Below, in pieces: positions 37,875-48,359 of a stretch of DNA of 64,000 nt. Source of the DNA: Frigoribacterium endophyticum (lineage in GTDB: Bacteria; Actinomycetota; Actinomycetes; Actinomycetales; Microbacteriaceae). Below the pieces are notes generated by a model. That model had not been told where the DNA came from. It searched no databases and worked only from the letters and a program-made list of their open reading frames with translations. Made by a program: the position numbers and the translations under genes. The DNA is taken from the NCBI RefSeq assembly GCF_011759585.1, contig NZ_JAAOYV010000001.1, positions 186,001-250,000 of the forward strand, given 5' to 3'. Numbering within the stretch: the stretch's first letter is position 1; each line of letters opens with the position of its first letter.

Positions 37875-38846
37875 CTACTCGCCCCCGTTGACGGTCGCCT
37901 CGGCGACGCTGCCCGACGTGATGCCCCAGGCGTCGAGGACCTCGCCGTAGGTGCCGTCGTCGATCAGCGAGTCGAGGGCGGCGGCGATGGCGTCGCGCAG
38001 CTCGGGGTCGTCCTTGTTGACGCCGATGCCGTACGGAGCGCCGTCGATGACGTCGCCGGGCACGACCTCGAAGGCCTCGCCGTCCTGTGCGGTCTTCGAG
38101 ATGTAGACGGCGCTCGGCAGGTCGTTGACGATGGCGTCGATGCGGCCGGTGCGCAGCTGCGTCTGGTTCTGGCTGTCGCTGTCGGTGACGGTGATCTCGA
38201 GCGGCTCGTCGCCGTCGGACTCGCACTGCGTGCTCGTCGACTCGGCGAACTCCTGCTGGCTCGTGCCGGTCACGACCGCGATGGTCTTGCCGCAGAGGGC
38301 GTCGGGCCCGGTGATGCCGGCCGGGTTGCCCTTCTGGACCATGAGGGTGATGCCCGACGTGAGGTAGTCGACGAAGTCGATGGCCTGCTGGCGCTCTGCG
38401 GTGTCGTTCATGGCGGCGATCGTGACGTCGACGCGGCCTGACTGCAGGCTCGTGATGAGCGACCCGAAGTCCTGGTTCTGGTACTCGACGTCGAGCCCGA
38501 GCTTCTTGCCGACGGCCGTGATGAGGTCGTGGTCCGAGCCGATCACCGTCGAGCCGTCGGCCGCGTAGAAGTTGTTCGGCGCCGACTGGACGTTCGAGCC
38601 GACCGTGAGGGTGCCGGCGTCGGCGATGTCGGTCGGCACCTGGGCGGCGAGGGAGTCGTCGACCTCGACCGCGTCGAGCAGCGCGCTCGTGTCGGGGATG
38701 CTCGAGGTCGACGCCGACGAGGCGTCGTCGCTCGCGTCGCCGGGCTGCGGTGCGCTGGGCCCGCCGCACCCGGTGAGAGCGAGCGCCAGGGCGGCGCCGG
38801 TGGCGACGGTGCCCCAGAGGGCGGTGCGGGTGCGGGGTCGGGTCAT
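37875..38846 (-). CDS. Polar amino-acid-binding lipoprotein (SBP family 3)
   Basis: 323 residues. The signal ends in the lipobox LALTGCGG; a Ser/Asp-rich linker precedes the bilobed domain (LTVGSNVQSAPNNFYAADGS, then DHDLITAVGKKLGLDVEY, SGRVDVTIAAMNDTAERQQA). This is the PBPb family that captures polar amino acids at the outer face. It is the first gene of a five-gene operon that continues to an aminotransferase and RidA, and is divergent from a YheO-type regulator. ATG 38846 has AAAGG upstream. Confidence 0.94.
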   Translation of the reverse strand: MTRPRTRTALWGTVATGAALALALTGCGGPSAPQPGDASDDASSASTSSIPDTSALLDAVEVDDSLAAQVPTDIADAGTLTVGSNVQSAPNNFYAADGSTVIGSDHDLITAVGKKLGLDVEYQNQDFGSLITSLQSGRVDVTIAAMNDTAERQQAIDFVDYLTSGITLMVQKGNPAGITGPDALCGKTIAVVTGTSQQEFAESTSTQCESDGDEPLEITVTDSDSQNQTQLRTGRIDAIVNDLPSAVYISKTAQDGEAFEVVPGDVIDGAPYGIGVNKDDPELRDAIAAALDSLIDDGTYGEVLDAWGITSGSVAEATVNGGE

Positions 38847-38913
38847 GGTCGAGCCTTTCGTGAACGTCGTCGGTCATCGGAAGCTAGCCGATCTCTCGGC
38901 ACGATGAGAGAAA

Positions 38914-38953
38914 ATTATCACACTGCGAACGTTTTGTTACATACCGGTAACCT
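38914..38953. promoter_or_regulatory. Divergent promoters of the amino-acid operon and its regulator
   Basis: On the minus strand GATAAT (38919-38914) is a good -10 for the ABC operon. On the plus strand TAACCT (38948-38953) lies exactly 6 nt before ATG 38960, a leaderless start. Between them TTACATACCGGTAA (38937-38950) is an imperfect palindrome that could bind the regulator. The region is AT-rich compared with its surroundings. Confidence 0.6.
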
Positions 38954-38959
38954 CGGGGC

Positions 38960-39691
38960 ATGACGTCTTCCTCGAGCCCTACCGTGGTCGACCGCAGCCG
39001 GGTGCTCCGGGCGGAGTTCGCGCCCTACCTCCCGCTGATGGACTTCCTCGCCGAACTGCTCGGCCCCCGCACCGAGGTGGTGCTCCACGACACGAGCGAC
39101 CTCGGCCGGTCGATCGTCGCCCTCACGAACGGCCACGTCAGCGGGCGCACCGTCGGCGGCCCCGCGACGGACCTCGTGCTCAAGGTGCTGCAGAACCACG
39201 AGCACGACGACCGTGACTACCTCGCGAACTACCTCGCCGAGTCACGCACGGGCGGGACCTTCCGGTCGTCGACCTTCTTCATCCGCGACGAGGCGGGGGG
39301 AGTGGTCGGCATGCTCTGCCTCAACATCGACGACGAGCCGCTCACCCGGGCCCGAGACCTGCTCGCCGCCATCACGGCCACGACGGGCCTCGTGAAGGGC
39401 GCCTCCGAGGGAGGCACGCCCGGGGCGCCGGAGAGGCCCGCGGCGGTGGCCGAGCGGCTGAGCACGACCGTCGACGAGCTCGCGCTCGACGGCGTCGCGC
39501 GGATCGTCGCGGCCCGTGGCGTCGACCCGCAGCGGATGACGCCGGAGGAGAAGGTCTCGGCCGTCCGCGACGTGGAGCGAGCCGGCGTCTTCCTGCTCAA
39601 GGGGGGCGTCGCCCAGGTCGCCGAGGCCCTGCACGTGTCGGAGCCCACGGTCTACCGGTACCTCAAGCAGGTCCGCCGCGCCTCCTCGTAG
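38960..39691 (+). CDS. YheO/DauR-type regulator (PAS_6 + HTH_22)
   Basis: 243 residues. The N-terminal YheO-like PAS domain spans about residues 18-145 (LLGPRTEVVLHDTSDLGRSI, then ITNGHVSGR-like LTNGHVSGRTVG and FFIRDEAGGVVGMLCLNIDD). The C-terminal HTH_22 domain (residues 185-240) ends GVAQVAEALHVSEPTVYRYL. DauR of this family controls D-arginine catabolism; other members respond to amino acids. Divergence from an amino-acid importer-aminotransferase-RidA operon makes it the likely regulator. Its last 29 bp overlap the 3' end of the convergent sensor kinase gene. Confidence 0.9.
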   Translation: MTSSSSPTVVDRSRVLRAEFAPYLPLMDFLAELLGPRTEVVLHDTSDLGRSIVALTNGHVSGRTVGGPATDLVLKVLQNHEHDDRDYLANYLAESRTGGTFRSSTFFIRDEAGGVVGMLCLNIDDEPLTRARDLLAAITATTGLVKGASEGGTPGAPERPAAVAERLSTTVDELALDGVARIVAARGVDPQRMTPEEKVSAVRDVERAGVFLLKGGVAQVAEALHVSEPTVYRYLKQVRRASS

Positions 39692-42029
39692 GCTCCCGGC
39701 CGGCCGTGCCCGGGCGCGGGCGCGGGCGCGGGATCGTGACCCACAGGTCGACCTCGTCGTCGACGTCGAGCCCGAGGGCGGCGGCCGTCTCGTCGGTCGT
39801 CAGGGCGACCACGGTCACGGCCGTGTCGGAGTCGGGGCCTCCGCTCCGCACGACGATGCGGCTCGACCGCACCGGCTCGAGGTGACGGGCGACCTCGTCG
39901 AGGAGGCCGTCGAGGTCGGCGGGCGCGATGTCGTCGAGGCCGCCGTCGTCGAGCACCTGCACGAGCGCGCCGCGGCGACGGTGCGCCGAGACGGTCGCCC
40001 GCACCGCGTCGTTGAGGAGCCCGCGGCCCCGGATCTCGTCGCGCAGCGCCTGCTCGAGCACGCGGCACTCGGCCCGCGCGGCCTCGTCGAGCTCGCCGGC
40101 CGCGTCGACGATGCGCTGGAGCACCGGGGCGGCGGTCCGCCGGGCGTGCCGTAGCCGGTGGCGCCCCTCGGCGTGGAAGGCGTCGAGCTCGGCGTGCTCC
40201 GTCGTCAGCGCGTGGTGCGTGCGCGCGGCCACGTCCGCCGCGGCGCTGACGCGGCGGACGGCGCGGTGCATCAGGAGGCCGGCGACGACGATGACGATCT
40301 CCGCCGCCAGGCCGAGCCGGAGCACCCCGTACGGGCCGGCCCACACGGCGATCTGGACGACGAGGACCCCCACCGCGACGAGGGGCGGCCCGCGGCGGCC
40401 CGCCATCCACCCCATCACCGCGCCGGCCAGGACCCCGCAGGTGTACCGGGCGATCGACACGCAGTCGAAGGTCGCCGGGTCGAGCCCGATCGTCGCCACG
40501 GCGCAGAGCAGGCAGCCGACCGCGGTGGTGCCCCACGCGGCCGCGTCCGACATCGTGCCGGCGCGGGCTCCGCGGAGGAGCGTGGGCAGGATGAGCAGGC
40601 CGAGCAGCGACGCGACGACGGAGCCGTAGGCCCTCGTGACGATCAGGGCGTCGAGGGAGGCCACGAGCACCGCGACCAGGATGAGGGCGCCGAGGGCCTG
40701 GTAGAGCCGGCGGCGGGGGATCAGCTCGAGCAGGTCGCGGCCCGGCCGACGCCCGGGCCGGGAGCCCGCCGTCCCCGGGCGCCACTCCAGCGTGACGACG
40801 GTCCCCTCGCCGGGCGCCGAGACGACGTCGGCGGTGCCCCCGACGGCGGCCACGCGCTCGAGGACGGAGACGCGGACCCCCAGCCGCTCCGCCGGCACGC
40901 CGGCCGTGTCGAAGCCGACGCCGTCGTCCGAGACCGTCACGCGCACGCCCCCGCCCGCCAGCGGCACGGCGACGGCCGCGCGCACCACTGCCGCACTGGC
41001 CGCCGTCCCGCCTGCGTGCCGCACGCTGTTCGAGAGCGCCTGCACGGTGGCCCCGACCAGGGCGTCCGCGACGTCGTGGGGGAGGCGGACGTCGCGCGCC
41101 GGGGCCAGGTCGAGTCGGGCGAGCCCGCGGAACGCCGACAGCTCGCCCTCCGCGGCCGACACCGCCTCCCCGACGGTGAGCGACGGGCGCGCGGCCGAGG
41201 GGCGGTCGTCGGGCGCGGCGAGGATGTCGAGGGAGGACCGGGCCATCGCCGCGGCACGGCCGGAGGAGCCGCCCGCGGCGGCGGCGAGGAGGGCGGCGAG
41301 CACGGTGTCGTGCAGCACGGCGTCGGTGTGCGACCTCTCGGCCTCCGTCGCGACGCGCCGCTCGTGGCGCTCGACGAGGACGCGGGCCCGGCGCTCGACG
41401 TCGTCGGCCCGGTCGGCGCTCGCCCGCAGCGCCCGGACGCCGAGGACGAGGGCGCCGGCCAGGAGGCCGAGCCCGATCAGGTCGACGAGGGTGTGGGTCG
41501 CCGTGGACCGACCGGCGTAGACGCAGGCCAGCGCGAGGTCCAGGCCCGCGCAGATCGCGGCGGCCCGCACCGGGCTCGGCTCCGCGACCGCGGTGCAGCT
41601 GAAGGCGATCAGCGACAGCCCCAGGAGCCACGGCGTCGACCCGGCGGGGAGGGCGTCGCGCAGGGTGAAGGGCTCGACGACGAGGAGCCCGACGTAGGCG
41701 ACCACGGGCAGCCAGAGGCCCGTGTGCACCGGGCCGGGGTGCCGCAGGAGCGCGAGCGGCAGAGCCGCGACCATCGAGACGGCGAGGGAGAGCGACAGGA
41801 CGAGCAGCGCGGGCCCGACGGCGTGGTGGTCCGTCGCCCAGGTCGGCAGGGCCAGGAGCACGAACAGCAGAGCCGCGACGGAGAGGGTCGCGGCCATGCC
41901 GCGCTCCACGCCGCGACGGAGGGGGCCGGCGTCCCGGCGGTCGGGCCGGTCCGCGGCGGGAGGCCCCGGCGACGCCGACTCCGTGCCCCTGGCCAGCTCG
42001 CCAGCCAGGTCGACGGAGCTCGTGGTCAT
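39663..42029 (-). CDS. Sensor histidine kinase with duplicated membrane/kinase modules
   Basis: 788 residues from ATG 42029. Module 1: about six membrane segments (residues 48-200), a linker helix, His240 in DAVLHDTVLAALLA (NarL-type dimerisation helix) and an HATPase domain with N334 (SNSVRHAGG) and D368-G370 (SDDGVGFD). Module 2: a second membrane block (about 440-610), then REGRHRLRHARRT-like sequence and a poor ATPase-like region (VLEQALRDEIRGRGLL, then VLDDGGLDDI) without an N-box. The second module looks catalytically dead. No response regulator gene is adjacent. The signal is unknown. Confidence 0.85.
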   Translation of the reverse strand: MTTSSVDLAGELARGTESASPGPPAADRPDRRDAGPLRRGVERGMAATLSVAALLFVLLALPTWATDHHAVGPALLVLSLSLAVSMVAALPLALLRHPGPVHTGLWLPVVAYVGLLVVEPFTLRDALPAGSTPWLLGLSLIAFSCTAVAEPSPVRAAAICAGLDLALACVYAGRSTATHTLVDLIGLGLLAGALVLGVRALRASADRADDVERRARVLVERHERRVATEAERSHTDAVLHDTVLAALLAAAAGGSSGRAAAMARSSLDILAAPDDRPSAARPSLTVGEAVSAAEGELSAFRGLARLDLAPARDVRLPHDVADALVGATVQALSNSVRHAGGTAASAAVVRAAVAVPLAGGGVRVTVSDDGVGFDTAGVPAERLGVRVSVLERVAAVGGTADVVSAPGEGTVVTLEWRPGTAGSRPGRRPGRDLLELIPRRRLYQALGALILVAVLVASLDALIVTRAYGSVVASLLGLLILPTLLRGARAGTMSDAAAWGTTAVGCLLCAVATIGLDPATFDCVSIARYTCGVLAGAVMGWMAGRRGPPLVAVGVLVVQIAVWAGPYGVLRLGLAAEIVIVVAGLLMHRAVRRVSAAADVAARTHHALTTEHAELDAFHAEGRHRLRHARRTAAPVLQRIVDAAGELDEAARAECRVLEQALRDEIRGRGLLNDAVRATVSAHRRRGALVQVLDDGGLDDIAPADLDGLLDEVARHLEPVRSSRIVVRSGGPDSDTAVTVVALTTDETAAALGLDVDDEVDLWVTIPRPRPRPGTAGREPTRRRGGPA

Positions 42030-42051
42030 GCCGTCACGGTATTTCTGCCCG

Positions 42052-43047
42052 TCAGGTGTGGTCGACACCCCCGAACGGGCCAGTGCGCATCCTGGATGAC
42101 GGGCCACCGGGTGCGCCGAGCGCGCCGCGACCGCCCCGCGCCGCGACGACGGCGACGACCGCCACGGCGGCGCCCGCGACGGCCCACGCCGCGACCGCGA
42201 CCGCGCCCGCCGGGTGGACCACCGACTGCCCCAGCGACGCCTGCACGGCGAGCAGGACGGTCGCCGCCCCGTACGCGACCGCCGCCACCAGCACCAGCCG
42301 GAGCTGGACGACCGGCGACGCCAGCAGCGGCACCCGCCGCCCGAGCGCGCCGAGCAGCAGCGCCGCGAGCGGCAGGGCCTGGAGGGCGTGCATGCCGACG
42401 AAGTGGGCGACGCGGTAGTCGCCGCCGACCGTGCTCCACCCGAGCAGGGCCAGCCCCGGCCCGCCGTCGACGACGCCCACGGCGTGGGCCCCGACGATGC
42501 CCGTCGGGCTTGCGATCTGGGCCCCGGTCGGCCCGGTCATGAGGAAGGCCACGCCGATCCCGCCGAGGGCGATCAGGGCGCCCGCCCGGACGGCGGCCGT
42601 GAGGGCCGGCGTGGGGAAGCGCAGGCCGACGAGCATCAGCGACGTCACGAAGGTGCAGAGGTACATGACCGTGATCGCGACGGCCATGGCGCCCCAGACG
42701 ACGACGTGCAGGCCGTCCGAGACGTTGAAGTGGCTCGTCGTGCCGGTGGCGACCGCCCAGACGATGAGCACCTGCTCGACGAGGAGCGTCGCGGCGATCA
42801 CCGTGCCGAGGCGCCCGGCGAGCACCCGGCGGCGCGGCAGGTGCGCGATCAGCCACGCCCACGTCACCGCGTAGAGGCCGATCGAGAGCGAGAACTTGAG
42901 CGGCTTGGCCCAGGCGGGCGCCCCGAGGATCGTCCGCGGGTCGGCCACGAGCCCGACGACGCAGGCCACGGCGCACACGCCCATCACGGCGGCCAGCGCC
43001 ATGAGCGGAGGGTGCCAGGCGACGGCCCGGCGCAGCCCGGCGCTCAC
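42052..43047 (-). CDS. Multi-pass membrane protein co-encoded with MerR
   Basis: 331 residues with about eight membrane segments. PRTILGAPAWAKPLKFSLSI near residues 37-56, then TSHFNVSDGLH and GDYRVAHFVGMHALQALPL, include conserved-looking His residues inside or next to helices, which could bind heme or metal; this is speculation. I do not recognise a transporter family. GTG 43047 overlaps the merR stop (GTGA), so the regulator most likely controls this protein. Confidence 0.8.
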   Translation of the reverse strand: MSAGLRRAVAWHPPLMALAAVMGVCAVACVVGLVADPRTILGAPAWAKPLKFSLSIGLYAVTWAWLIAHLPRRRVLAGRLGTVIAATLLVEQVLIVWAVATGTTSHFNVSDGLHVVVWGAMAVAITVMYLCTFVTSLMLVGLRFPTPALTAAVRAGALIALGGIGVAFLMTGPTGAQIASPTGIVGAHAVGVVDGGPGLALLGWSTVGGDYRVAHFVGMHALQALPLAALLLGALGRRVPLLASPVVQLRLVLVAAVAYGAATVLLAVQASLGQSVVHPAGAVAVAAWAVAGAAVAVVAVVAARGGRGALGAPGGPSSRMRTGPFGGVDHT

Positions 43048-43691
43048 GAGCGTCGGTCGTCCTGGTCGGCGACCGGGAAGAGGTCGTGCGTGACGTCCTC
43101 GTGCGCGAGGCGGCGCAGGCCGGCGAAGAGCGGGTCGCCGAGCACGGTGCCCACGACCATCAGCTCCGCGACGTCGTCGCGGTCGTGCCGGCCGCCCAGC
43201 GCCTCCACGTCCGCCCGGGCGGCCGTGGCCGCGGCCGCCAGGTACGCCTGCAGGTAGTCGTCGGTGGGCTCGAAGTCGATCGTGGCCAGCCCGTCGAGGG
43301 CGCGGGCGGCGGCGTCGAGCCCGGGGTTCTCGTCGGTCGTCGCCCAGCCGGCGGCGCTCGTCAGCGCGGCCACGCGCTCGCGGGCCGCGGGGCTCGGCGC
43401 GGCGTCGTGCGCCCGGGGCGAGCTCATCGCGTGCTGGGCCGCGGCGAACGCCTCGGCCAGCGGGGCGTCGTCGGCGTCGAGGGCGGCGAGGACGCCCTTC
43501 GTGGCCGCGACCGAGAGGCCCCCGACCTCGAGCAGGGCCCGGACGAGGCGCACCCGCCGCACGTGCCGGTCGTCGTACGAGGTCTGGTTCGGGGCCGTCT
43601 TCTCGCCCGGGGGCAGCAGCCCCTCACGTTGGTAGTACTTGACCGCCGTGAGCGGTGTGGTCGCCTCCTGGGCGAGTTCGGATATGCGCAC
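43044..43691 (-). CDS. MerR-family transcriptional regulator
   Basis: 215 residues. The N-terminal winged HTH reads VRISELAQEATTPLTAVKYY, then QREGLLPPGEKTAPNQTSYD and HVRRVRLVRALLEVGGLSVA, a standard MerR_1 domain. The C-terminal 130 residues are helical and lack the Cys pattern of metal sensors, so it probably senses a small organic ligand or another cue. GTG 43691 lies exactly 6 nt after a TACTCT -10, so the mRNA is leaderless and carries merR and the membrane-protein gene. Confidence 0.9.
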   Translation of the reverse strand: MRISELAQEATTPLTAVKYYQREGLLPPGEKTAPNQTSYDDRHVRRVRLVRALLEVGGLSVAATKGVLAALDADDAPLAEAFAAAQHAMSSPRAHDAAPSPAARERVAALTSAAGWATTDENPGLDAAARALDGLATIDFEPTDDYLQAYLAAAATAARADVEALGGRHDRDDVAELMVVGTVLGDPLFAGLRRLAHEDVTHDLFPVADQDDRRS

Positions 43692-43697
43692 TATCGG

Positions 43698-43703
43698 AGA
43701 GTA
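43698..43703 (-). promoter_or_regulatory. -10 element of leaderless merR
   Basis: TACTCT on the minus strand lies 6 nt before the GTG start. The surrounding CGATAGTGC and GGATAGCAG segments could be the MerR site. Confidence 0.55.
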
Positions 43704-43753
43704 CTGCTATCCATTCGTGAGGCACAAGGGGAAGCGACCCCTGTCGACGACGA

Positions 43754-43789
43754 GGAGGCGCGGTGCAGGTCTCCCCGCACCGCGCCTCC
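43754..43789. terminator. Hairpin downstream of the amidase gene
   Basis: GGAGGCGCGGTGC (43754-43766) pairs perfectly with GCACCGCGCCTCC (43777-43789), with a 10-nt loop. It lies 17 bp after the amidase stop on the minus strand. Same arm as the hairpins at 22547 and 50198. Confidence 0.85.
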
Positions 43790-43805
43790 CGCAGGCTCCT
43801 CGCGC

Positions 43806-45635
43806 CTACTTCGTCAGCGGACCGTAGAGCGCCGGCGACGTGCGGGCGTGGGTCGCCTGCTCGAACGCGTAGCCGAGGCCGATCAGGGTCGACTCGTCGT
43901 AGTCGCGGCCGAGGAACTCGAGGTTGACGCCCGCGCCCGTGACGGTCGCGTCGACCGCGATCGCCTGGCCCATCGGCACCGTCACGGCCGGCATGCCCGT
44001 GTTGGGGCTGAGGCGCATGTTCGTGCTGAACGAGTTGTAGGCGACCGCCGAGGGGTAGATCAGGGCGTCGAGGTCGCCCCCGTCGAGCATGCCCGTGACG
44101 AGCTGCTGGCCCGCGGCGATCTGCGTCGTGTGCGACCCGGTCGGGCCGGCCCAGGCCTGGTACTGCGCCTCGGTCACCGCGGCGCGCGCCGTGTAGATGC
44201 TGGCCCGCGACTGGACGTAGCGGCCCGACGCCTGGATCTCGGGGATCGTCCGCGCCGTGACCTCGGGGGCGAGGTGGTCGCGCGTGTAGGCGGCGAGGTC
44301 GTGCGCGAACTCGTTCGTGCTGCCGCTCGACTCGGAGAGCACCCGGGCGAACCCGGCGGGCGGCGTGACCGCGACGACGGTCGCGCCCTGGGCCCGGAGG
44401 GTCGCCAGCGACGCGGCGAAGAGCCGCTGCGTCGTCGCGTCGGTGCTGACCATCGAGGCGACGTAGCCGATCCGGGTGCCCTCGAGCGCCGTCGGGTCGA
44501 GCGCGGCCGTGTACGAGGTCGGCACGCGGCCCTGCTGCTCAGCGGTGACGGGGTCGCTCGCGTCGACGCCCGTGACCGCGTCGAGCGCGATCGCGGCGTC
44601 GGTGACGCTGCGGGCGAGGGGGCCGCCGGTGTCCTGGCTGAGGGCCAGCGGCACGATGCCGGTGCGGCTGGTGAGCCCCACCGTGGGCCGGACGCCGACG
44701 AGCTGGTTGTACGACGACGGGATGCGGATCGAGCCGCCCGTGTCGGTGCCGAAGCCGATGCCCGCGAGGTTCGCGGCGATCGCCGCGCCCGTGCCGCCGC
44801 TCGAGCCGCCGGCGGTGCGGCTCGTCACGTACGGGCTGGCGACGAGGGTCGTCTGCCCGGCGGGCTGGCCCGCGGTGTACTCCGAGGCGAAGCCGTAGGC
44901 GAACTCGTCGAGGCTGGCCTTGGCGAGGATCACAGCGCCGGCGTCGCGGAGCCCCGCGACCATGGTCGCGTCGTCGTCGGTCTGGTTCGCGTCCCAGCAG
45001 CCGCAGCCGGCCGTGGTCGGCATGTCGAGGGTGTCGTAGTTGTCCTTCACGGCGATCGGCACGCCGAGCAGCATGCTCGTCATGCCCTGCGAGGCCCGGG
45101 TGGCGTCCGCCGCGGCGGCCGCGGCGAGGGCCTCGTCGTTCGTCGTGATGATCGAGTGCAACGGGCGCCCGTCGGCGGCCGGGTCGACCTTCGCGGTGTC
45201 GTACGCCGCGATGCGGGCCAGGTAGTCGGCGGTGAGGTCGACCGAGCTGACGACCCCGGCGTTCATCGCGGCCTGCATGTCGACGGCGCTGGCCTCGACG
45301 AGCTGGAACTCGCCGTCGTCGTAGATCGCGCGCTGCGACACCGCGGCGACGTCGGCCACGGTGATCACGCCGTCGGCGTCGACGTCGGCGGTGGCGACGG
45401 CGTCGAACTCGGCGGAGGGCGACGTGGCGCCGAGGGCGGCGGAGACCAGCTCGAGGTCGGCCGCGGTGACCTGGTCGTCGCCCGTCAGGTCGAGCTCCGT
45501 GTAGTACGGCGCGAGGAACGCCGCGACGGGCGCGTCGTCGGCGGCGGCGCCGGGCGCGACGACCAGCCCGCCGACGGCGAGGGCCGAGATGATCGAGGTC
45601 GCGGCGACCGTGGCGGTGCGTCGGCGAGTGGTCAT
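43806..45635 (-). CDS. Secreted amidase-signature enzyme with N-terminal dockerin
   Basis: 609 residues. Residues 1-32 are a signal peptide. Residues 45-105 form a type I dockerin: two calcium loops, DLTGDDQVTAAD (49-60) and DVDADGVITVAD (84-95), each followed by a helix. Residues 115-609 are an amidase-signature domain with Lys197 (GVPIAVKDN), the GGSSGG serine (278-279) and nucleophile Ser302 (DTGGSIRIPS). The enzyme hydrolyses C-terminal or free amides outside the cell; the substrate is unknown. A dockerin on an amidase, before the catalytic domain, is odd. The gene directly upstream encodes a wall-anchored cohesin, its likely partner. ATG 45635 is chosen as the start of the signal peptide. 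Confidence 0.93.
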   Translation of the reverse strand: MTTRRRTATVAATSIISALAVGGLVVAPGAAADDAPVAAFLAPYYTELDLTGDDQVTAADLELVSAALGATSPSAEFDAVATADVDADGVITVADVAAVSQRAIYDDGEFQLVEASAVDMQAAMNAGVVSSVDLTADYLARIAAYDTAKVDPAADGRPLHSIITTNDEALAAAAAADATRASQGMTSMLLGVPIAVKDNYDTLDMPTTAGCGCWDANQTDDDATMVAGLRDAGAVILAKASLDEFAYGFASEYTAGQPAGQTTLVASPYVTSRTAGGSSGGTGAAIAANLAGIGFGTDTGGSIRIPSSYNQLVGVRPTVGLTSRTGIVPLALSQDTGGPLARSVTDAAIALDAVTGVDASDPVTAEQQGRVPTSYTAALDPTALEGTRIGYVASMVSTDATTQRLFAASLATLRAQGATVVAVTPPAGFARVLSESSGSTNEFAHDLAAYTRDHLAPEVTARTIPEIQASGRYVQSRASIYTARAAVTEAQYQAWAGPTGSHTTQIAAGQQLVTGMLDGGDLDALIYPSAVAYNSFSTNMRLSPNTGMPAVTVPMGQAIAVDATVTGAGVNLEFLGRDYDESTLIGLGYAFEQATHARTSPALYGPLTK

Positions 45636-45730
45636 GGCGGGCAGTCTCCGGGGTGAGGGCGACGAGGGCGTCGCGGGGGCGAGGGGAGCGTGGGAGTCGC
45701 GGGCCGGCAGCCCGGTCCGGTCGCGGGCGC

Positions 45731-46483
45731 TCATCGGGTCGCCGCCGCACGGCGACGGAGGGCGACCGCGGCCATGACGAGCAGGCCCAGCACGAGCAGC
45801 CCGGCTCCGCCGGCCACGAGGGGCCAGCTGTCGGAGCCGGTGAACGCGAGGTCGTCGCGCGAGCCGGTGGCGGTCGGGCGGCCGGCGGCCGCGCCCGTGA
45901 CGGGAGCGGTGGCGGTGGGGCTGGCCGAGGGCGCGGGCGCGCCGGCCGTCGGGCTGGCGGACGGCTGCGGGGCCACCGGTGCGGCGGCCACCGCGACGAC
46001 GGCGGAGGCCGTCGGCGTGACCACGAGGCTGCTGCCGTCGGCGCCGATCAGCTCGACCGAGTCGAGCGACACGGCGGCGCTGCCCGCGGCGACCGCGGTG
46101 AACTGCAGGTCGACGGTGAGGTCGCCGGTCAGGGCCGGGGAGCTGCCGAGCCGCGTGTGCAGGATCGAGAGCGACCCGTCGGCCACCTGGACGTCGTCGA
46201 AGCCGCCGCTCGGGGAGGTGGCGCTGTCGGCGACGTAGTCGAGGGCGACGTCGTCGAAACCGACCTCGAGGTCGTACGCGTAGACGTCGGCGGTGCCGGT
46301 GAGCACGACCGAGACGTCGACGACGTCGCCGACCGTGGCGGTCGCGGGGGCCGTCACGGTGGCCGAGGCCAGGACGGGGGCGGCGGAGGCGGGGGAGGCG
46401 CCGAGCGCGACCGCGGCGAGGGCCAGGGCGACGGCCGTCGCGGAGCTGCGGGCGCGCGGGAGGCGCCGACGGAGGGGCTTCAT
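45731..46483 (-). CDS. Wall-anchored cohesin-domain protein (LAFTG)
   Basis: 250 residues. A signal peptide (1-35) precedes one cohesin-type beta-sandwich (about 37-165): ATVGDVVDVSVVLTGTADVY, AYDLEVGFDDVALDYV, LTVDLQFTAVAAGSAAVSLD. A Pro/Ser/Thr linker (170-210) leads to the sortase motif LAFTG (212-216), a membrane helix and a basic tail (ALRRRAAATR). A class E sortase would attach it to peptidoglycan. A single cohesin on an anchor, next to a dockerin amidase gene 95 bp downstream, suggests display of that enzyme on the cell surface. ATG 46483 has GGGAG upstream. The 211 bp before it show no clear promoter. Confidence 0.9.
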   Translation of the reverse strand: MKPLRRRLPRARSSATAVALALAAVALGASPASAAPVLASATVTAPATATVGDVVDVSVVLTGTADVYAYDLEVGFDDVALDYVADSATSPSGGFDDVQVADGSLSILHTRLGSSPALTGDLTVDLQFTAVAAGSAAVSLDSVELIGADGSSLVVTPTASAVVAVAAAPVAPQPSASPTAGAPAPSASPTATAPVTGAAAGRPTATGSRDDLAFTGSDSWPLVAGGAGLLVLGLLVMAAVALRRRAAATR

Positions 46484-46694
46484 CGGGAGGGAGTCCTTCT
46501 CATGGGGAGGAGCGGCGGAGGGTGGTGTGCAGGAGGCTCGAACGGTATCCAGGGCGTGTTTCCGGCTCACGCCCAGGTCCGTTTCGAGTTCGTTACGTCT
46601 GCCTGCAGCCCGTTCCGCCGCTCGGCGTTGTGCGCCTCCATCCGGCCTGTCACCATGAGCGCGGGCGGCACGCCCCCTTCAGGCAGGAGACGAC

Positions 46695-47135
46695 ATGGCC
46701 GACGACGGCTTCACGAAGGAGGAGCGCGCCGCGATGAAGCAGCGCGCCGCCGAGCTGCGGGTCGAGGCGAAGCGGCAGAAGCTCGCCGACAAGGCCGCGG
46801 CGGAGGAGGCCGACGCGCTCGCCGCGATCGCCGCCATGACGGACGTCGAGCGGCCGATCGCGCAGATGGTGCACGAGATCGTCGCCGAGCACGCCCCGAG
46901 CCTGCGTCCCAAGACCTGGTACGGGTTCCCCGCCTACGCGCGGGAGGACGGCAAGGCCGTCGTCTTCTTCCAGCCCGGCGCCAAGTTCGGCACGCGGTAC
47001 TCGACCCTCGGGTTCCAGGACGGCGCGCAGCTCGACGACGGGGTGATGTGGCCCACGGCGTACGCCGTCACGGGCGTCGACGACGCGACCCGCGCCTCCC
47101 TCGGGGCCCTGGTCCGACGCGCCGCCGGCGACTGA
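46695..47135 (+). CDS. DUF1801-domain protein
   Basis: 146 residues. The first 50 form a charged helix (KEERAAMKQRAAELRVEAKR, then QKLADKAAAEEADALAAI), and residues 55-146 form a YdhG/DUF1801 fold: LRPKTWYGFPAYAREDGKAV, then FGTRYSTLGFQDGAQLDDG. Relatives include the Bacillus frataxin-like Fra (YdhG), linked to iron handling, but most DUF1801 proteins are uncharacterised. ATG 46695 has AGGAG upstream. Cytosolic, monocistronic. Confidence 0.87.
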   Translation: MADDGFTKEERAAMKQRAAELRVEAKRQKLADKAAAEEADALAAIAAMTDVERPIAQMVHEIVAEHAPSLRPKTWYGFPAYAREDGKAVVFFQPGAKFGTRYSTLGFQDGAQLDDGVMWPTAYAVTGVDDATRASLGALVRRAAGD

Positions 47136-47168: not shown

Positions 47169-48188
47169 TCAGACGCTGTCGGGGTCGAGGTTGATCGTGT
47201 TGCCGTAGATCAGGTACTGCTGGTCGCCGGTGACGAGCAGGCCGGCGTTGAGGTAGATGAGCGCCGCGGGCGTGATGCCGAAGCGTGCGGCGACGGCGTC
47301 GATCGTGTCGCCCGCCGCGACGAGGTAGCCGCGCGGGCCGCCCGCGGGCGTCGACGACACGACGGTGCCGGTGGCGAGGTCGGCGGAGCCCGAGTCGGCG
47401 ACGACGATGTTCGTCTGCCGGTCGGGCACCGACCACCTGACGGGCGTCACGGCGAGCACCTTCTCGGGGCCGATCTCGACGGGCAGGTCGGCTCCGTCGG
47501 TGGCGGCGGAGTAGGTGACCAGCGTGCCGAGGTAGCCGGGCGTGCTCGTGCCGAGCAGGGTCGAGGTGGCGAGGGCGGGCTCCGTCGTGGGGCCGCCGAG
47601 CTGCAGGTCGCCCGGGCCGTGCGCCGTGAGGCCGTCGCCGACGCTCGGCGCGATCTCGATCAGGGTCGCGCCGACCGGCACCGGCAGCGTCGAGGTGAAG
47701 CCGGAGTACTCCATCGAGAAGGTGTCGTCGCCGTTCGCGGTCGCCCGCCAGTGGTAGGCGACGCTGCCCTTCGGCGAGCGGACGTCGCCCTCGGAGACGA
47801 CCGTGCCTGCGGCGACCGGCGTGACGAACGGGGCCGGGACGGCGGGGTCGGCCGGCGGCGCCGTCGCGGGGCGCGGGGTCGGCGAGCCGGTGGCGGTCGC
47901 GACGGTCGGCGTGGGCGAGGACGTGCTGGGCGCGACGGCCTGGGCGGTGCGCGTGGCGGTGCTGACGGGCGTCGGCTCGGCCTCGCCGGGCCAGAGGGCC
48001 CAGCCGACCGCGCCGATGGCGATCGTCGCGACCGCGACGACTCCGCCGACGATCGCGATCACGCGGCCGCGGCCGCGCGGCGGTGCCTCGGTGCCCGTGG
48101 CGGTGCTGCCCGTGGTGGTGCTGGCGGCGCTGCCGGTGTCGGAGCCCCCGGCGTCGGTGCCGTCGCTCCTGGTGGTGCTGTCGTCCAT
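47169..48188 (-). CDS. Membrane-anchored LysM-domain protein
   Basis: 339 residues. A Ser/Thr/Gly-rich N-terminus is followed by one membrane helix (about residues 42-65, VIAIVGGVVAVATIAIGAVG), a long Pro/Thr-rich linker, a predicted beta domain (150-290) and a C-terminal LysM of about 45 residues (YLVAAGDTIDAVAARFGITP, then ALIYLNAGLL). The orientation places LysM outside, where it binds peptidoglycan. ATG 48188 follows a GGGAACGACAG leader. It has no catalytic motif and may be a wall-associated structural protein. Confidence 0.85.
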   Translation of the reverse strand: MDDSTTRSDGTDAGGSDTGSAASTTTGSTATGTEAPPRGRGRVIAIVGGVVAVATIAIGAVGWALWPGEAEPTPVSTATRTAQAVAPSTSSPTPTVATATGSPTPRPATAPPADPAVPAPFVTPVAAGTVVSEGDVRSPKGSVAYHWRATANGDDTFSMEYSGFTSTLPVPVGATLIEIAPSVGDGLTAHGPGDLQLGGPTTEPALATSTLLGTSTPGYLGTLVTYSAATDGADLPVEIGPEKVLAVTPVRWSVPDRQTNIVVADSGSADLATGTVVSSTPAGGPRGYLVAAGDTIDAVAARFGITPAALIYLNAGLLVTGDQQYLIYGNTINLDPDSV

Positions 48189-48359
48189 CTGTCGTTCCCC
48201 CTCGGGCCAGCCTAGGGGGGTCAGCCTGCGGGGCGCGAGCGGCGCCGCCCCCTGCACCCGCCCCGCACCGCAGCAGCGCCGTCGCTCGCGCCTGCGCCCG
48301 CCCGGCGCAAGCCCCCGTCGCACATCGGACGAGGCGGGGCGCACGGCGGAGCGGAGCCG

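Follow-up and report, generated by a model that had tools for sequence, protein, structure and literature searches.

Cohesin-dockerin pairs are best known from cellulose-digesting anaerobes. In the type I and type II cellulosome systems of Clostridium thermocellum, Ruminococcus and Acetivibrio, the cohesin is located on one protein and a two-loop calcium dockerin on a secreted enzyme. Here, we analysed a stretch of 64,000 nucleotides from Frigoribacterium endophyticum (positions 186,001 to 250,000 of contig NZ_JAAOYV010000001.1; hereafter the window), where the same division is found on two adjacent genes. One gene encodes a cohesin protein with a sorting signal, and the other encodes an amidase that carries a dockerin and is predicted to be secreted. 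The pair differs from cellulosomes in several respects: a single cohesin and a single dockerin were found in the Frigoribacterium genome, the dockerin is borne by an amidase, and there are neither repeated cohesins nor a carbohydrate-binding module. We propose that the pair is very probably a minimal surface display of one socket and one plug, in which the dockerin-amidase would be docked on a wall-anchored single cohesin.

Cohesin and dockerin domains at the locus

The original prediction, made from the letters of the window, had placed a cohesin on the anchor protein and a two-loop dockerin on the amidase. Both profiles, PF00963 and PF00404, match above their cut-offs (Table 1), and the aspartates at the loop ends (D49/D60 and D84/D95) are as described. 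At E<=0.01, PF00963 matches 16 of the 18 aligned cohesin members, and PF00404 matches 19 of the 20 aligned dockerin members. Across an alignment of 76 sequences, Asp is invariant at both ends of both calcium loops; the 20-sequence alignment contains an exception, the divergent dockerin of L045, where loop 1 starts with Glu. When the whole genome (3.32 Mb) was searched with the profiles at E<=10, one cohesin and one dockerin were found, both at this locus. A survey for other dockerin proteins had been suggested along with the prediction, and its only match is the amidase dockerin. Fourteen control genomes were searched with the same models. At E<=10, the cohesin model matches two of them (one over the cut-off) and the dockerin model nine (two over the cut-off); at E<=0.001, the numbers are one and two, respectively. 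As control genomes match too at E<=10, it is the scores over the cut-off that carry the weight.

By profile search, the solved structures closest to the window cohesin are 2jh2 and 2o4e (E about 2e-9), which are non-cellulosomal cohesins of Clostridium perfringens. The fold was modelled on a relative from Microbacterium sp. 2FI (L125), where one frame of 769 codons comprises a signal peptide, the cohesin, the dockerin and the amidase, without a sorting signal; this natural fusion was seen once, in a draft genome. The model of its cohesin-dockerin fragment has a mean pLDDT of 79.5, a pTM of 0.55 and a poor linker; averaged over blocks of ten residues, the pLDDT is 73-94 for the cohesin and 84-97 for the dockerin. 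The solved structures that match this model best are again non-cellulosomal C. perfringens cohesins (2vo8, E 1e-8, and 2jh2), followed by others that include cellulosomal ones. The beta-sandwich cohesin fold, with matches to 2vo8, 2jh2, 2w1n and 4dh2, is seen on this relative and not on the window protein. Both the profile and, through the model of L125, the predicted fold place the window cohesin nearest to non-cellulosomal cohesins.

For the dockerin, the window protein itself was modelled (pLDDT 79.9). In the model, a helix links two loop-helix motifs, which differs from the four helices of an EF-hand pair; the module contains three helices, and a fourth follows where the amidase begins. 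The top 16 Foldseek matches are all chains of cohesin-dockerin or scaffoldin complexes, 2ozn_B included (probability 0.38-1.00, E 0.075-2.4).

Conserved neighbourhood of the two genes

To describe how often the two genes are found together, we combined several surveys. The genome surveys are lossy, as the window's own cohesin was missed in two of them and found by direct genome search; thus, the counts are lower bounds. In the family survey (299 genomes, E<=0.001), PF00963 was found in 15 genomes and PF00404 in 20. All 15 genomes with PF00963 also hold a dockerin-amidase, which is adjacent in 14 and, in the remaining one (G155), the two genes lie at the ends of two contigs. The dockerin is on this amidase in 19 of the 20 PF00404 genomes; in G264, the match falls in a different short frame, located at the end of a contig. 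Six of the 20 have no PF00963 match in the survey, and five of these, the window genome included, do have an adjacent cohesin gene, the sixth being G264.

A scan with one genome per species and the dockerin alignment as query retained 80 loci from 90 relatives. The dockerin is on the amidase in all 80, and a cohesin is present in 75, the other five dockerins being close to a contig end. An earlier contig scan with the cohesin protein as query gave no matches; with the dockerin alignment as query, loci were found. In total, we gathered 97 distinct dockerin-amidase loci, mainly via dockerin profiles, after removing identical dockerin-amidases and keeping near-identical ones. The original prediction had named conserved adjacency as a check: an adjacent cohesin gene on the same strand is found in 92 of the 97 loci, the other five lie at contig ends, and for one cohesin outside the family (G598) no dockerin match was found in the genome. 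Among the 92 paired loci, the cohesin comes first in 84 and the dockerin in seven, and in one the two are fused. The pair is thus conserved across loci, which rules out chance.

The locus occurs in Frigoribacterium, Curtobacterium, Leifsonia, Herbiconiux, Agreia, Mycetocola, Microbacterium, Glaciihabitans and Okibacterium, and also in Cellulosimicrobium, Cellulomonas, Oerskovia, Isoptericola, Demequina and Georgenia. For Sanguibacter, we observed a dockerin-amidase at a contig end and no cohesin. In a class-wide sample of 394 genomes, nine genomes are matched by the dockerin alignment and nine by PF00963. Outside the family of the window, this sample puts the dockerin in one family (f34), which belongs to another order. 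A cohesin is beside the dockerin in all nine dockerin genomes. Seven of the nine PF00963 genomes are among these; G598 has no dockerin match, and G677 has a weak partial match only. The G598 cohesin (L164 / L219) has extra C-terminal domains and is either an orphan or has a partner too divergent for the profile.

In Demequina sediminis (L089, 5112-5860), the cohesin gene is split over two overlapping frames, by a sequencing error or as a broken gene. A dockerin-amidase that is 67% identical over the dockerin (L109) lies on a contig of 3566 bases filed as Stenotrophomonas maltophilia P13 and is probably a contaminant. No match to the window amidase was found on plasmids at E<=1e-80.

We also looked for a third gene shared between the loci by clustering the neighbours of 96 of them. 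The largest clusters cover 10-13 loci, and none is common to most genera. The candidate clusters were mostly lineage-specific flanking genes or a general family (ABC-type ATPase), and none was accepted. Next to the pair, one flank aligns with a genome of the same genus (G035, L211), with 90% identity for pgi and 83% for a DUF1801 gene. In a 16-kb stretch of that genome, positions 38000-46698 of the window have no alignment, and no clean empty site was found. This suggests that the pair occupies a region which differs from one species of the genus to another.

Wall anchors on partner or enzyme

The anchor protein had been predicted to carry a sortase motif, and the LAFTG motif was confirmed at its place (Table 1). 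A motif of the LxxTG type near the C-terminus is found in 82 of the 92 cohesin partners, and a hydrophobic C-terminal tail in 83 of the 90 separate partners. The divergent partners of L045 and L218 (G132 and G185) have a hydrophobic tail without LxxTG and a longer sequence than usual between cohesin and tail, and in the split gene of L089 the second piece carries the motif. LAxTG motifs are of the class E sortase type. The window protein has the features of a class E substrate: its LAxTG motif is followed by a hydrophobic stretch and a basic tail, and the genome encodes one class E sortase. That sortase scores 242.8 bits (cut-off 160); two further sortases are class F-like, with 172.5 and 158.1 bits (cut-off 166).

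The dockerin-amidases have close relatives without a dockerin. We searched 199 genomes of the one bacterial family with the window amidase as query (E<=1e-60). Sixteen full-length matches (46-100% identity, E<=1.2e-119) include the dockerin, and in 17 other matches the alignment starts at residue 81 or later (38-49% identity, best E 8e-89). Fourteen of these 17 loci were examined (L185-L198), and all 14 have a signal-like N-terminus and no dockerin match. In a tree of 25 dockerin-amidases and 14 dockerin-less amidases, the two groups are fully separated (support 0.89 and 1.0); the tree is midpoint-rooted and includes the genome G132 twice, and the separation is one split. All 13 complete dockerin-less sisters have a hydrophobic C-terminal tail (hydropathy 1.87-2.73), and ten of them have an LxxTG motif. 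By comparison, 96 dockerin-amidases were tested, two of which are truncated, and the 94 complete ones all lack both tail and motif (maximal hydropathy 1.22). Thus, most loci have the anchor in one of two places: on the enzyme itself or, where there is a dockerin, on the cohesin partner. No other observation argues as strongly that the docking serves display at the wall. As the root of the tree is the midpoint, the direction of this swap, from enzyme to partner, is only inferred. The window genome has two further partial matches to a sister amidase, L222 (G000:C2:292488-293411) and L223 (G000:C1:859734-860414), with identities of 42% and 37%, respectively.

A model of surface display

In the proposed mechanism, the cohesin protein and the dockerin-amidase would both be secreted. 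A sortase, probably the class E enzyme of the genome, would join the cohesin protein to peptidoglycan via LAFTG. The amidase itself is anchorless; the dockerin at its N-terminus may bind Ca2+ by two loops and dock on the neighbouring cohesin. The amidase would thus be kept at the wall non-covalently, where it could hydrolyse an extracellular amide. In the original prediction, the pairing came from adjacency only, and it can now also draw on one-to-one co-occurrence, the natural fusion and the anchor swap. From the sequences, we infer that the two proteins bind each other, that this binding depends on Ca2+, which sortase acts and what the substrate is.

We give an even chance to a further scenario. 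There, cohesin-dockerin docking would have replaced a covalent wall anchor, with the sortase signal moving off the enzyme onto a cohesin protein of the same operon in one amidase clade. The outcome would be a reversible, calcium-controlled display system for one enzyme, which works independently of cellulosomes and has spread over two or more orders of Actinomycetes. In that case, the enzyme would be releasable or exchangeable between cells, and the cohesin-dockerin pair would be a general display module and not a part of the cellulosome.

Several observations weigh against the display by docking. The Foldseek E-values of the dockerin model are weak (the best is 0.075, none is <=0.001), with high probabilities for the top hits. 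The cohesin of G598, which belongs to f34, is over the PF00963 cut-off in a genome with no dockerin match. Furthermore, the cohesin protein of the Isoptericola locus L099 ends past the cohesin domain with no visible anchor, and in five f34 loci the cohesin proteins carry extra C-terminal domains, which we take to be Ig-like, and neither a sorting signal nor a tail. Therefore, wall anchoring is not universal. Lastly, partial Mantel tests over 89 loci gave 0.30 between cohesin and dockerin with the catalytic domain fixed, a value that 0 of 999 permutations reached (the permutations ignore relatedness), and 0.35 between cohesin and catalytic domain with the dockerin fixed. The tests thus do not discriminate, and they show no special co-divergence of cohesin and dockerin.

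We considered three other explanations. The dockerin-like module might be an ordinary, stabilising EF-hand pair and the cohesin-like neighbour an unrelated surface protein of the same operon. The profile of the module does match calmodulin EF-hands (best E 1.3e-8; the best 60 of 245 matches are calmodulins or calmodulin-containing constructs), and the L125 model has a six-residue helix ahead of loop 1, in the place of the first EF-hand helix. However, the window model has a mere three-residue helical turn at this position in addition to its three helices, and the module is over the cut-off of PF00404 and under that of EF-hand_7 (12.7 bits vs 30). In the fold search that ranked the 16 complex chains at the top, EF-hand proteins reach a probability of 0.08 or less. 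Moreover, the cohesin is present in all 92 loci with a visible neighbour, which is not expected of an unrelated gene. Based on the Pfam scores, the window model and the fold search, we rejected a generic EF-hand pair, and the explanation as a whole is very unlikely.

It is very unlikely indeed that the cohesin protein acts alone or with another dockerin partner while the amidase is released into the medium. The cohesin partners without an anchor, in L099 and the five loci of the other order, would fit such a release, as would the cohesin of G598; however, the only dockerin found in the window genome sits on this amidase, and the sister amidases are anchored themselves, which argues for display of the dockerin-amidase. 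A larger cellulosome-like complex with several enzymes, of which the pair would be a part, is extremely unlikely. An excerpt of PMC12997984 does read a cohesin and a dockerin in one genome in that way. Against this, one cohesin and one dockerin were found in the window genome, no neighbouring gene is common to most genera, and neither protein shows a glycoside hydrolase, a carbohydrate-binding module or repeated cohesins in Pfam. We rejected the cellulosome, as the searches found one cohesin and one dockerin instead of several and the only dockerin found is on an amidase, not on a carbohydrate-active enzyme; for this genome it is contradicted, barring a second dockerin protein that the searches overlooked. 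Display of one amidase on one cohesin is thus the explanation that we retain, as a variant of cohesin-dockerin binding and not as a cellulosome; the claim that a minimal one-cohesin anchor for one amidase is a distinct display system is supported.

Gene layout and catalytic domain

The features of the locus are given in Table 1. Both genes are adjacent on the same strand, as had been predicted. For the amidase gene, place and strand were borne out, and the start was corrected: it is very probably the ATG at 45734, because the overlap with the cohesin stop is kept, with 4 bp in 81 of the 84 cohesin-first loci (74 ATGA, 7 GTGA). This overlap suggests that the translation of the two genes is coupled. 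In the N-terminal region of the amidase, an RR pair is found in 79 of 94 loci (duplicates included).

Table 1. Positions of the cohesin gene, the dockerin-amidase gene and their features in the window
Feature	Position	Strand	Details
Cohesin anchor gene	45731..46483	-	250 aa, stop included; signal peptide, one cohesin domain, Pro/Ala/Ser/Thr-rich linker, sorting signal
Dockerin-amidase gene	43806..45734	-	642 aa; signal peptide, dockerin, amidase domain, no C-terminal anchor
Dockerin-amidase gene, alternative start	internal ATG at 45635	-	609 aa
Overlap of cohesin stop and probable amidase start	45731..45734	-	4-bp ATGA
Cohesin domain PF00963	46058..46345	-	residues 47-142, 29.2 bits vs cut-off 24.1
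LAFTG sorting motif	45836..45850	-	residues 212-216; followed by a hydrophobic stretch and an RRR-containing tail
Type I dockerin PF00404	45333..45491	-	residues 49-101 (numbered from ATG 45635), 29.7 bits vs cut-off 22.9
Calcium loop 1, D49-D60	45456..45491	-	from sequence; Asp at both ends
Calcium loop 2, D84-D95	45351..45386	-	from sequence; Asp at both ends
Amidase-signature domain PF01425	43884..45155	-	residues 161-584, 264 bits vs cut-off 27

In the catalytic domain, K197, S278 and S302 are invariant in 20 aligned amidase sequences; these are presumably the catalytic Lys, Ser and Ser of the amidase signature. The closest solved relatives of this domain are the peptide amidases 1m21 (E 4e-68) and 5ac3 (E 2e-68), and the region with K197, S278 and S302 lines up with them. 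Peptide amidases take C-terminal amides off peptides.

Near the pair, a reading frame at 47169-48344 (minus strand) has a C-terminal LysM-like repeat that scores 20.3 bits, just under the Pfam cut-off of 20.9. The counterpart of this protein in the same-genus genome G035 is located about 36 kb from pgi.

Comparison with known systems

Among the titles and beginnings of abstracts listed for open-licence papers on cohesin or dockerin together with actinobacteria, sortase, amidase or the host genera, none describes this pair, and we claim no priority. According to excerpts of PMC4562250, neither a cohesin nor a dockerin was found in the translated Cellulosimicrobium cellulans F16 genome, and excerpts of PMC3544764 report none in three cellulomonads. 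Among other C. cellulans strains, we found the pair in PW and NBRC 15516 and a dockerin-amidase at a contig end in JZ5; the pair is also present in three Cellulomonas species, which are other species than those of PMC3544764. The pair thus bears on both reports, as far as the excerpts go. In the part of PMC11557425 that was available, neither 'actinobacteria' nor 'actinomyce' occurs. Dockerin-bearing peptidases and cell-wall hydrolases are mentioned in excerpts of PMC2930009 and PMC6403190; going by these, a dockerin on an enzyme that is not a glycoside hydrolase is not new in itself.

As far as our searches show, the locus extends cohesin-dockerin display to actinobacteria without a cellulosome. 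The system is small enough to test affinity, specificity and Ca2+ dependence with two proteins, and such pairs could serve protein engineering. The self-anchored sisters provide a natural comparison between anchoring on the enzyme and anchoring through docking: they resemble the window amidase in domain and signal-like N-terminus, and they differ from it by having their own C-terminal tail and no dockerin.

The best solved relative of the catalytic domain, 1m21 and 5ac3, is presumably the peptide amidase Pam of Stenotrophomonas. This match covers the window amidase only from residue 110 onwards, past the dockerin. The window enzyme is related to Pam by sequence alone, and hydrolysis of C-terminal peptide amides is its putative activity.

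The non-cellulosomal cohesins of C. perfringens (NagJ, 2jh2/2o4e/2ozn, and the GH33 protein, 2vo8) are closest to the window cohesin by profile and, via the L125 model, by fold, and the NagH partner dockerin (2ozn_B) is among the structural matches of the window dockerin. According to the entry titles, the C. perfringens cohesin is part of a glycoside hydrolase, whereas the window cohesin is a stand-alone anchor with an amidase as predicted partner. Single-cohesin and anchoring scaffoldins, including cSca5 of the mucinolysome, also combine a cohesin with an LPxTG or membrane anchor (excerpts of PMC11557425 and PMC12997984). In these sources, such scaffoldins belong to genomes with several cohesins or many dockerin proteins, whereas the window cohesin has one partner, encoded in the same operon. 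We take the pair for a conserved variant of cohesin-dockerin display.

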